A DNA stretch of 64,000 nt from Tetrahymena elliotti 4EA (Eukaryota; Ciliophora; Oligohymenophorea; Hymenostomatida; Tetrahymenidae), in NCBI GenBank assembly GCA_000231825.2, contig JH720308.1:820110-884109 (forward strand), given 5' to 3'. Under the pieces are notes generated by a model. It had not been told where the DNA came from and ran no database searches. It worked only from the letters and a program-made list of their open reading frames with translations. The position numbers were made by a program, and so were the translations under genes. Shown here one piece after another: positions 30,357-33,696 of this stretch (the stretch's first letter is position 1; each line of letters begins with the position of its first letter).

Positions 30357-33300
30357 ATGTTTGACAATTAAGAAGTAGATCCTATGAAGGAAAAAATATC
30401 AAATGCTATTAAAAATATGAGATCTCCATTTAGGCATTACCCTAGATGTAACAAGTGCCCTCTTTCTAAAGACATGAGTTTGATGTGAATAAATTAATTA
30501 AATATCATTTAAATAACTATTAAGTTAAAATGTTTAAAAAATTTAAGATGTCTAAACCCTGATTGTGGAGAAAACTATTTTAAATTGATATGTCCATATT
30601 GCCATAGAAATGAGCACCAAAGACATGAACTAAAAGTTGAAGATGATCTTGATTTAGTTCTACAAATGATAGAAGATCATACTAGGTCAAGGTATATTAA
30701 TAAGCAAGTCACAGATTAAGATGTTGGATTTATTGATCTACTTTTAGATTCATAAAAAGCTTTGAATAAGCTACTAAACAAGATACAATAGGTTTGAAAC
30801 TATTAATTAGATTTAATTAGAACGATAAGTGATATTAAATGATATAGGTCAAGTTCATATTAGATGATACCTTGAATGGTTATAAGAGAAGAATGAGAGA
30901 ATATGAAGAGGTCATAAGAATGATTAACAATGCATAAATGTCTTCTAGCTAAGCCATTATTAATGAATAATTATTTAAAATTAAAGACAAAATTGTTTAT
31001 AATTGTAATGAAACAGATGTTTATATTGAGTGGAATTTTGAGAAGACTTACAATGAAATGGAAAAAAAGAGAAGAGAGGGATACAGTTAATAGTGTCTTA
31101 AAACAATAAGTTAATGTGAAAAATCATTTAAAAATTTAGTAAATATAACATTTAATTATTTATATTTTTTGCTTATCAATAATAAAAAAATGTAGCTCTA
31201 GAATTTCCGTGATGTAGTCAATCCAATATTAGAGAAAAGAATAGTTCAGAAGGTTTGTTTGGATAAATGCAATTAGATGCTTGATAGACTCAATATTTCA
31301 TGGAGAGTATTAACTTAAATTAATAACTGATAAGTTTTTTATGAATTTTTTAAAATTATAAAAAAAGTGGGAAAAATATGTAAATTAAATTTAAAACAAT
31401 ATTGCTGATTGATAAACGTTAAAATAACTAATCAAAATATTAGGAGGACATTGTAATATTTTACATTTAATATAAATCTAATTCAGATATTTTATTAAAT
31501 AATATAGGAAGTAAGTTTAGTTTTTGGAGAAATTTTTAAGTAACGAATATGCCTATAATGATAGATCGTAAAATATTTACGTTTTCAATATTAATATTAA
31601 TTAACACATATTATTTTAACTAAAGAAAGTAAATACATATATTAGATGAGTAGGAATAGTTTAATATTATTTTATCTAAAATAAAATAGAGAGTAAATTA
31701 TAAATTAAAAAAAAGCTAATATGATATTATTTTCAATAAAAATAGATGGTAAGTTTATTTTTCAAAATTAAACTGAAAGTGATGAAAAAACAAAATAATT
31801 AGAATGTAAGATAATTTAGCAACACTTGGCAAAGATTTAATTTAGTTTATTTTTTAATTAAACTCATAAAAAAGGCAGTAAAATTATTTGCTAAAATTTA
31901 AATTTATATCTAATTTTTTTAAATCAAATAAGTATGTAAGTTTTCTAACTAAATAAAGAAGCCTAAAATAACAATTTTGGAAATTTTAAAACAAACTAGC
32001 AAGTAAATTTGAAAATAAAATATTTATGACCAAATTGATACTATTTAACTTATTAATAAAAAGAACGTAAATAAAATATTACTTTTTTTTGTATAATTAA
32101 TTAATATTTTTTAAAAAAATAGGGAGTAATTTATTTCTTACGATAAAAGTGCAAATGATAACTAATTTTTTAATTTTTTAGAAAGTAAAATTGCTTCAAA
32201 ATAATTTCTTTAAATTAATTTTATCACTTTTATGAACACCTAAAAGAATGTAAGATTATTTAAATCATTTTAGTATTTATTATAAATTATTTTTTTAAAA
32301 GTACGTAAATCAATAAATTATCTTTGATGAATCATTCATAAGATTATCTAAATTTATTTATTTAGAGGGTATATTTTTTTTCAGGAACTTATTTTTCATT
32401 AAATGAATTATTTGTAAAACAGCCAGTAAAGTTAATTATTTAAGATATCATTTAACTTATTTCACTTTAATAATATTAAAAAGTGCGTAATTAATTAAGG
32501 TTGAATAGAATTAGATTAAAAATTACTCTAATTGGTAATATAGATCGTAAATATTTAGATGGAGATAAAAGAATATTAATTTTGTTTTAGAATGTAAATT
32601 CTTCTATTTGGATTAAATTAAAAGTAAAAAAATTTTTTAAAGTTGGTAAAATTTTAGTTTGCGAACAATAAAGGCTTATGTTGTACTCTTATAAAAGACA
32701 GTAAATTTATTTTAAAGCTTAAATAAATTAAAGTAGATTTTTTAAAATAGAATGTAAAAAAAATTAAATTAATGGTGACATGAATTTATTTTCACAAAAT
32801 AAAAGAAAGTAAAATTCAATTATTAAATCAAAGAATCTTAACTTAATATCTTTAAAATAGTTCGTAAAAAAATTATAAAGAATTTTTATTGTTAAATAAA
32901 AATTATTATACCTTTACTTAATTTAGGAAGTAAGATATCTATAAAAACAGCAAGTTTGAAAAAATTATTTACTAACTAGGAAGTAATTATCTTCATTTTT
33001 TAGAATAAAATAATTAATATTAATATTACAAAAGATCAACATTTATGAATTTGTGAGTGGTTCAACTTCAAAAGAGACCTAAAAAAAAGAAATCGAAGTA
33101 TTTATCCATTTACTTATTTTGAATCAATAAGTTTAATTAATATAATTTTTAAATGTTAAAATATAAGATGGTAAATTAAATGATTGATTGATGAAGATAA
33201 AGATAAACAAATATTTTTATTTTAATAGCTAGTAAAACATAATTTGAATAGTCAATTTACTTAACAACATTCAAACTTATTAGATAGTAAAATCTTTTTA

Positions 33301-33696
33301 AATTTCAATTTATTTCAAATAAAATAATTCATTTTTCAAAGGATGTAAGTTTATTAATTGCTTGGAAAATAATGTTCATTAACACTTAAAACACAAATCC
33401 AATAGAAAGTAAATTTTTTAAGGATTTATAGCTTTAAATTAATTAAATTTTTTTATTTCAAAACTTAAAAGTGGGTAAAATATTTAGTCAAAGTTTATTA
33501 ATTTAAATATTTTTTCAAATGAATCCATAAATAATCCTTAAATAGACAGTAAAATTATTTTTTCACCATTCATTTTTAAAGATGCTAAAATTAAAAAAAG
33601 CATGCAAAAGAACTTTTAGAGATTTTCTTAAGTTTCTAAGAAAAGATTTAAGAATCTAGTAACTTTTAATAGATACTACCAGATAACATAAATTGA
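30357..33696 (+). CDS. micro-exon gene: zinc-binding/helical protein with 33 single-codon exons
   Basis: Predicted 350 aa from 41 exons and 40 introns. Normal exons: 30357-30484, 30548-30791, 30848-31138, 31196-31306. Then 31368-31379 (12 nt), 31444-31452 (9 nt), 26 exons of exactly 3 nt (31508 to 32982), 33035-33097 (63 nt), seven more 3-nt exons (33168 to 33548) and the last exon 33601-33696 ending in TGA. Total coding length is 1,053 nt, all in phase. Residues 25-75 hold a B-box-like zinc cluster: PRCNKCPLS, CLNPDCGENYF, CPYCHRNEHQRHE. The rest is helical and charged. The last exon reads AKELLEIFLSFQEKIQ. The intron 31139-31195 is a multiple of three and could be retained. I do not recognise the family. 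The 5' half is secure; the array is inferred from splice signals and phase, with no RNA evidence. Confidence 0.72.
31508..33548 (+). other. tandem array of 3-nt phase-0 micro-exons
   Basis: First bases of the 3-nt exons: 31508, 31565, 31626, 31690, 31746, 31803, 31875, 31933, 32000, 32064, 32123, 32182, 32247, 32302, 32366, 32423, 32484, 32544, 32591, 32643, 32698, 32751, 32806, 32861, 32927, 32980, then 33168, 33229, 33284, 33342, 33406, 33472, 33546. Every one is preceded by AG and followed by GTAA (GTAT once, at 32369). Introns between neighbours are 44-71 nt. Codons 1-13 give EIKRMNAYQNGKN, codons 14-26 give YRPCINLTNKFEE, and the last seven give MLIDKWT. The introns share no sequence beyond splice ends, so this is not a DNA repeat. 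Confidence 0.8.

Follow-up and report, generated by a model that had tools for sequence, protein, structure and literature searches.

Can a protein-coding gene be assembled from a long series of exons that are each a single codon in length? The question is raised by a gene on the forward strand of Tetrahymena elliotti 4EA (assembly GCA_000231825.2, JH720308.1:820,110-884,109, hereafter the window; 64,000 nt), in which 3-nt segments set between an AG and a GTA recur at short intervals. We put the probability at about 0.9 that the gene is protein-coding and that 33 of its codons lie in separate 3-nt segments, which would be joined in order as constitutive single-codon exons; this estimate was made from the DNA sequence. 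Positions below are those of the window unless a contig is given.

Between 31506 and 33552 there were 33 AG-NNN-GTA units, 32 with GTAA and one with GTAT (after AGG at 32366), the same tally as in the first-pass annotation of this DNA. Units 1-26 (31508-32982) formed the one unbroken run that had been described. Unit-to-unit distances of 47-74 bp had also been given; these hold throughout the array except at a 188-bp gap (32978 to 33166), which went unmentioned and which accommodates an ordinary phase-0 exon of 63 nt (33035-33097). The introns of the array in this gene measured 44-71 nt. In 31307-33600, AGNNNGTAA was observed 32 times, against a mean of 0.77 and a maximum of 5 in 1000 dinucleotide shuffles, close to the earlier estimate of about one unit by chance. 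The longest run of units was 26, compared with two at most in the same number of shuffles. Across the entire window and both strands, 72 unit matches were found where 34 were expected, a count as high as in none of 100 shuffles.

The triplets were then compared with codons and with intron sequence. As first reported, none of the 33 is TGA, and TAA and TAG, which are read as glutamine here (long open frames under table 6), are absent too. The G+C content was 29% in the triplets and 17% in the introns. The 33 triplets encode 17 different residues, compared with an average of 12.0 for random intron triplets (17 reached in 11 of 5000 draws). Their codon-versus-intron log-odds was 7.8, the mean for random intron-triplet draws being -7.2; since only one of 5000 draws was as high, the triplets of the window gene are codon-like.

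The predicted gene extends from the ATG at 30357 to the TGA at 33696, with 41 exons and 350 codons, and was obtained with a gene finder and corrected by hand using orthologues and the list of units. It comprises four ordinary exons, exons of 12 and 9 nt, 26 exons of 3 nt, the 63-nt exon, seven more exons of 3 nt and a last exon of 96 nt. Thirty-five of the 41 exons thus do not exceed 12 nt, and 33 measure exactly 3 nt; all array introns are in phase 0. When gene models were held to one phase, phase 0 scored 194, phase 1 158 and phase 2 164. A chain of exons drawn across the array blind to coding content contained no TGA in phase 0 and two in each other frame; with an exon limit of 24 nt, it caught only the 3' 21 nt of the 63-nt exon. 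The absence of TGA, the model score and the codon-like triplets favour the phase 0 that had been proposed for the 3-nt exons, and the gene model likewise leaves the array in phase 0 into a last exon that ends in TGA. The cDNA insert between exons 31196-31306 and 33601-33696 had been predicted as 171 nt and should instead be 183 nt (12+9+78+63+21). That the locus is a decayed pseudogene, or the pattern a chance product of AT-rich DNA, is scarcely credible: although the gene-finder output needed hand correction and related arrays in part diverge fast, the shuffles never came near the observed counts, the 350-codon frame is intact and the coding flanks are conserved in two other species.

The closest public proteins to the window protein, from T. 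thermophila and T. malaccensis, were 86% identical over the alignment and matched coding exons that flank the 26-exon run upstream and downstream. T. thermophila TTHERM_00189380 spans the 12- and 9-nt exons (WEKYEDI), in agreement with the suggested entry into the array from the exon ending at 31306 through these two exons. It continues with V and a further six residues, which would be expected if the annotation reads on into the next intron (V being a GTN codon). T. malaccensis ABPG74_014180 passes from SWR directly to the peptide of the 63-nt exon, followed by a short tail that begins with V. The array genes L015 and L001 gave a similar picture, as their models in T. thermophila, T. utriculariae and T. 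malaccensis reach the array entry, add V and end shortly after; the two orthologues of L015 have a leucine before the V, and leucine (TTG) is what L015 encodes in its first single-codon exon. All five public relatives found (TTHERM_00189380, TTHERM_00070870, ABPG74_014180, ABPG74_021285 and ABPG72_012292) end at or bridge the array, with V at every break. Because these models end at or skip the arrays, the C-termini of the five annotated proteins are probably wrong.

The annotation of ABPG74_014180, drawn as though 31306 were joined to 33035, would also suit a single intron, from 31307 or 31453 to 33034, that is removed by recursive splicing, the 3-nt segments being relics or ratchet points that hold no protein information. 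Recursive splicing, in which a 3' site is immediately followed by a 5' site and the sites are used stepwise, is known from work in Drosophila. We consider this explanation quite improbable for the present array. A non-coding ratchet gives no reason for a strict 3-nt spacing with the other spacings mostly multiples of three, the window triplets are codon-like, and three properties of the related arrays described below (an avoidance of TGA specific to frame and exon order, eight TGA stops at the end of a shared motif, and a best-conserved frame) need triplets that are translated.

The window array is one of many in the genome and not a single oddity. In 90 Mb of sequence (134 contigs), a three-unit pattern gave 549 matches compared with 26 for a control pattern read backwards; the corresponding numbers were 126 and 4 for the AGC-first subset, 48 and 1 for the NNC-first subset, and 1324 and 920 for a two-unit pattern. 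Among the matches listed, a hand count gave at least 29 clusters with two or more three-unit matches, the window included, and at least nine further clusters with a single match, some of which may be due to chance. Besides the window, 22 array stretches (L001-L022) were taken for analysis.

In 20 of these loci together with the window array, AG-N(k)-GTAA was counted on the sense and antisense strands. The pattern occurred 664 and 46 times, respectively, at k=3, and was raised at other multiples of three (121/24 at k=6, 66/32 at k=9 and 52/28 at k=12). The remaining spacings gave 30/24 at k=4, 34/35 at k=5, 49/39 at k=7 and 34/32 at k=8, with less strongly raised counts at k=0 (89/36) and k=1 (94/43). 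Since 46 of 669 3-nt exons start with AG, most of the excess at k=1 is explained; 17 finish with AG, which accounts for the excess at k=0 only in part. The residual excess at spacing 0 may represent exons of zero length, or longer ones with AG at the end. The arrays do not have the form of zero-nt recursive sites, as spacing 3 prevails (664 vs 89 at spacing 0).

Coding-blind chains, which used splice-site profiles trained on pattern-defined introns, were prepared in two sets. When any exon length of 1-21 nt was permitted, 580 of 602 exon lengths were multiples of three and 479 were exactly 3 nt, and the antisense strand yielded no chain; together with the open frame in the window gene, these lengths are frame-keeping, as expected of micro-exons. 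With exon lengths confined to multiples of three, there were 62 chains and 804 exons, 669 of them 3 nt. Unrestricted gene-finder models retained some introns and mixed phases, and were used for gross structure only; the chains were used for the statistics.

Canonical 3' and 5' splice-site sequences border the array segments. At the 3' sites of 458 introns defined by pattern only, GAG (G at -3) was present once, in contrast to 7 of 67 antisense pattern sites. AG was almost absent from the last 12 nt of these introns and scarce to -22, with a density per 10 nt of 0.019 at -12 to -3 and 0.369 at -32 to -22. The median length of the array introns was 59 nt (range 44-72, bounded by the spacing of 45-75 used in selection). 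The median of the ordinary introns in the window was 66 nt (n=110), which is not an independent comparison, because the splice model used had been trained on array introns.

These borders bear on whether the intervening stretches might be internal eliminated sequences (IESs), removed from the DNA during nuclear development and not from RNA. Ciliates do remove such elements, and contigs C1, C3, C16 and C24 carry no telomere repeat (CCCCAA or TTGGGG) in their first 200 bases, so the assembly is not necessarily macronuclear. The 33 units nevertheless have GTA...AG borders and intron-like lengths, and the arrays exclude AG near the 3' site and G at -3. Moreover, the T. thermophila orthologue is labelled macronuclear and has V after the 9-nt exon, as if a GT border remained. 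In excerpts from PMC3276166, four of ten exon-interrupting IES candidates have TTAA in the junction, and the others differ. We regard elimination at the DNA level as very unlikely.

Intron phase appears to be constant within a gene, being 0 in the window gene and 2 in related loci. In phase 2, the intron follows the second base of a codon, so that the codons of 3-nt exons span two exons and depend on exon order. Twelve loci were grouped as a phase-2 set (L004, L005, L012, L013, L014 and L016-L022). Over 812 codons, with the last two codons per chain omitted, the three frames of this set contained 33, 1 and 26 internal TGAs (39, 10 and 27 with those codons included). When the order of the exons was shuffled within chains, the low frame contained 10.3 TGAs on average, and none of 2000 shuffles was as low as one. 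A six-locus subset without near-duplicates contained no TGA compared with 5.7 after shuffling (P 0.0008). Of the 66 locus pairs, 57 (one a tie) had their highest protein score in the phase-2 frame, as did all 20 pairs scoring at least 45 once two near-duplicate pairs were omitted, the pairs not being independent of one another. A phase-0 or phase-1 reading of this set was ruled out by the TGA counts and the pairwise protein scores. Of the changed codons, 24 of 74 were synonymous in the phase-2 frame, a larger share than in the others (14 of 94 and 16 of 80), again in pairs that are not independent, while substitutions by exon position between related arrays (41, 37 and 29) did not discriminate.

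The junctions indicate which exons would be joined. In the phase-2 set, TGA was present at one of 497 junctions between neighbouring exons (i/i+1), where 6.5 were expected, and at 9 of 445 junctions formed by skipping one exon (i/i+2), where 5.9 were expected. As TGA is avoided in the former and not in the latter, neighbouring exons are likely to be joined, with inclusion as the rule. A gene in which the micro-exons are mostly alternative, being included or skipped to give very many in-frame protein variants, is rather unlikely. In its favour, exon lengths that are multiples of three keep the frame whichever exon is skipped, portions of related arrays diverge at the pace of introns, and the micro-exon genes (MEGs) of schistosomes yield variants by alternative splicing, according to excerpts from PMC10526429. 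Selection, however, seems to guard full inclusion and not single skips, as the i/i+2 junctions contain no fewer TGAs than chance. Some skipping would be compatible with these counts, and is least excluded in phase-0 genes such as the window gene, where a skip creates no new codon. For the array genes, we infer constitutive splicing of the micro-exons and production of the encoded proteins.

The phase-0 group (L001, L008, L009, L015 and the window; 197 codons) contained 0, 3 and 9 TGAs in the three frames. Six loci were omitted from the group tests (L002, L003, L006, L007, L010 and L011), three being without a chain and three having chains of 6, 11 and 7 codons. L010 has a TGA end in the phase-2 frame.

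A peptide end motif, CEYELF / EYELF or a variant, was common to the arrays L004, L005, L012, L013 and L016-L022. Nine chains ended in TGA as the last full codon, and in eight of these (L004, L005, L012, L013 and L019-L022) the stop stood directly after the motif and was itself split by an intron. Phase-2 gene-finder models overran the motif stop in several loci. Around the motif, exons were 79-90% identical and introns 60-77% (pairs such as L012-L013 and L017-L021). For the members scanned against Pfam, and for a C-terminal alignment run against PDB and NCBIfam, nothing significant matched the motif.

Several results weigh against constitutive single-codon exons. The phase-2 loci were grouped only after their frames had been seen, and only one of the 12 reached P 0.05 singly. 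When the best frame was taken per locus in both the data and the shuffles, the 20 chained loci (1033 codons) contained one TGA compared with 5.2 (P 0.02). Five junction distances were tested in the phase-2 set, and TGA was also absent from the i/i+3 junctions (0 of 393; 5.4 expected). Nine of the 66 locus pairs scored best in another frame. The absence of TGA from the phase-0 group is weak alone, a column shuffle expecting 3.1 (P 0.03), and an order test is impossible for the window gene alone, because phase-0 codons do not span junctions. L008, L009 and L015 each have two open frames, so TGA does not fix their phase. The join of SWR to the 63-nt exon in ABPG74_014180 reflects either incomplete annotation or a long intron that truly exists. 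The ninth TGA-ending chain, L017 6627-6997, lies upstream of the L017 motif, which either counts against the model at that locus or is a chain error, and L020 also has an internal TGA upstream of the motif. The identity of L019 or L020 to L022 was alike in exons and introns (0.77-0.78 vs 0.79), and a large part of those arrays therefore evolves like introns. Finally, a search of public proteins with the micro-exon-coded end of L016 (residues 503-603) gave no match at E up to 1 (14 candidates).

If the single-codon exons are spliced as proposed, the introns, which are short like many others in this genome, would probably be recognised across the intron (intron definition), since recognition across a 3-nt exon is hardly possible. 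Two spliceosomes could not sit on neighbouring introns 3 nt apart at once, so removal would be stepwise; after one intron leaves, the 5' site that then lies immediately 3' of the joined exons may serve the next removal. This scheme of intron definition with stepwise removal, which we infer, is the model that the authors of PMC4674806, as excerpted, put forward for Arabidopsis APC11 with its 1-nt exon. In excerpts from PMC3274533, intron retention in T. thermophila was nearly six times as frequent as cassette events, which its authors took as intron definition.

The closest known systems share parts of this structure. The MEGs of Schistosoma mansoni, as excerpted from PMC10526429, have 10-20 exons per gene, mostly of 15 bp, and introns of 0.1-5 kb, the minimum exon length being 6 bp in the text and 3 in the abstract. 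Like the genes described here, they have many very short exons, mainly multiples of three, and are hard to annotate. Here, in contrast, the commonest exon is exactly 3 nt, with 26 in one run, the median intron is 59 nt, and the intron phase is apparently constant per gene. At E up to 0.01, the window protein matched only two proteins among 973 candidates, both from Tetrahymena, a comparison made without direct alignment to MEG sequences. Splicing of isolated 1-3 nt exons takes place in vivo, examples of tiny exons being those of APC11 (1 nt) and Drosophila homothorax (3 bp) and the microexons of RPS24 (PMC4674806, PMC7392893, PMC12686416); in the excerpts from these sources, tiny exons stand alone or in small numbers among longer ones, and there is no long tandem array.

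Two further likenesses concern the arrangement of sites and exons. Recursive ratchet sites also have a 3' site adjoining a 5' site, and are used stepwise, but retain nothing and split long introns, whereas here 3 nt would be kept at each step between very short introns. The leucine-rich-repeat genes of Tetrahymena have tandem 90-bp exons of one fixed length and one intron phase, in the same genus; those exons are thirty times longer and have one repeated sequence, whereas the present triplets vary like protein codons.

A search of open-licence PMC papers found no description of tandem single-codon exon arrays, in keeping with the first-pass annotation, which knew of none. We judge the arrays to be real and to stand, apparently undescribed so far, at the extreme of the micro-exon genes. 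Exons of 1-3 nt that occur singly, and genes composed of many short exons, are already known; a tandem array changes the splicing problem. It is probable that these genes represent a separate regime of gene structure, in which tandem 3-nt exons in a single fixed phase supply whole protein domains one codon at a time, with up to 84-98 exons by the gene finder. In the phase-2 set, nearly every codon, the stop included, would then be split by an intron, and the spliceosome would work along a ladder of very short introns by pure intron definition. Splicing models treat single micro-exons as special cases. Because tandem 3-nt exons offer nothing to recognise as an exon and no space for complexes on adjacent introns, they allow a direct test of how fast, how accurately and in what order introns are removed, in a species related to a standard laboratory ciliate. 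That the 3-nt length and the phase are both fixed also makes the manner of intron gain a pointed question.

Table 1. Predicted exons of the window gene. Unit list, AG-NNN-GTA units; chain, coding-blind chain.
Feature	Position	Strand	Basis
Exon 1, ATG start, 128 nt	30357..30484	+	gene model; aligns to TTHERM_00189380
Exon 2, 244 nt, remainder of Cys-rich motif (possibly zinc-binding), then helical-looking part begins	30548..30791	+	hand-corrected (model split differently); agrees with orthologues
Exon 3, 291 nt	30848..31138	+	hand-corrected; agrees with orthologues
Exon 4, 111 nt, final long exon ahead of array	31196..31306	+	single in one gene-finder run, split in another; orthologues match to ...SWR
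12-nt exon, WEKY	31368..31379	+	gene model, chain; residues in T. thermophila protein
9-nt exon, EDI	31444..31452	+	gene model, chain; residues in T. thermophila protein, then V (GTN codon)
Single-codon exon 1, GAA (E), opens 26-exon run	31508..31510	+	unit list, chain
Single-codon exon 2, ATC (I)	31565..31567	+	unit list, chain
Single-codon exon 3, AAA (K)	31626..31628	+	unit list, chain
Single-codon exon 4, AGA (R)	31690..31692	+	unit list, chain
Single-codon exon 5, ATG (M)	31746..31748	+	unit list, chain
Single-codon exon 6, AAT (N)	31803..31805	+	unit list, chain
Single-codon exon 7, GCA (A)	31875..31877	+	unit list, chain
Single-codon exon 8, TAT (Y)	31933..31935	+	unit list, chain
Single-codon exon 9, CAA (Q)	32000..32002	+	unit list, chain
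Single-codon exon 10, AAC (N)	32064..32066	+	unit list, chain
Single-codon exon 11, GGA (G)	32123..32125	+	unit list, chain
Single-codon exon 12, AAA (K)	32182..32184	+	unit list, chain
Single-codon exon 13, AAT (N)	32247..32249	+	unit list, chain
Single-codon exon 14, TAC (Y)	32302..32304	+	unit list, chain
Single-codon exon 15, AGG (R), then GTAT	32366..32368	+	unit list, chain
Single-codon exon 16, CCA (P)	32423..32425	+	unit list, chain
Single-codon exon 17, TGC (C)	32484..32486	+	unit list, chain
Single-codon exon 18, ATC (I)	32544..32546	+	unit list, chain
Single-codon exon 19, AAT (N)	32591..32593	+	unit list, chain; missed by gene finder
Single-codon exon 20, TTG (L)	32643..32645	+	unit list, chain; longer exon in gene-finder model
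Single-codon exon 21, ACA (T)	32698..32700	+	unit list, chain
Single-codon exon 22, AAT (N)	32751..32753	+	unit list, chain
Single-codon exon 23, AAA (K)	32806..32808	+	unit list, chain
Single-codon exon 24, TTC (F)	32861..32863	+	unit list, chain
Single-codon exon 25, GAA (E)	32927..32929	+	unit list, chain
Single-codon exon 26, GAA (E), closes 26-exon run	32980..32982	+	unit list, chain
Ordinary 63-nt exon, INIYEFVSGSTSKETQKKEIE, in 188-bp gap	33035..33097	+	gene models; T. malaccensis ABPG74_014180 carries INIFQYIAGSTSKETQKKEIE
Single-codon exon 27, ATG (M)	33168..33170	+	unit list, chain
Single-codon exon 28, CTA (L)	33229..33231	+	unit list, chain
Single-codon exon 29, ATA (I)	33284..33286	+	unit list, chain
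Single-codon exon 30, GAT (D)	33342..33344	+	unit list, chain
Single-codon exon 31, AAA (K)	33406..33408	+	unit list, chain
Single-codon exon 32, TGG (W)	33472..33474	+	unit list, chain
Single-codon exon 33, ACA (T)	33546..33548	+	unit list, chain
Last exon, 96 nt, ending TGA	33601..33696	+	gene models; one run with other settings picked another 3' end

The N-terminal part of the window protein contains a Cys/His-rich motif that looks zinc-binding by our own reading, and the protein had no Pfam family above the cut-off. A tRNA scan in its bacterial setting found none.

Among the related loci, kinase frames were noted upstream of long phase-2 arrays in L005 (C3:1777901-1787900), L012 (C17:139001-148900) and L016 (C23:143001-152900). 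L016 matched Pkinase (Pfam E 1.1e-29) and was the sole protein above the cut-off among seven scanned against Pfam; L005 and L012 are kinase-like by eye only. In L008 (C5:279501-288500), the first exon is 1.8 kb long and has many Cys/His motifs that look TRAF- or RING-like when judged by eye; it is followed by a milder array of 3-12 nt exons that was modelled in phase 0. L019 and L020, which lie approximately 28 kb apart on C24, have near-identical arrays with introns 98% identical over 49 aligned exons, and by sequence comparison are a recent duplication of a putative micro-exon gene.

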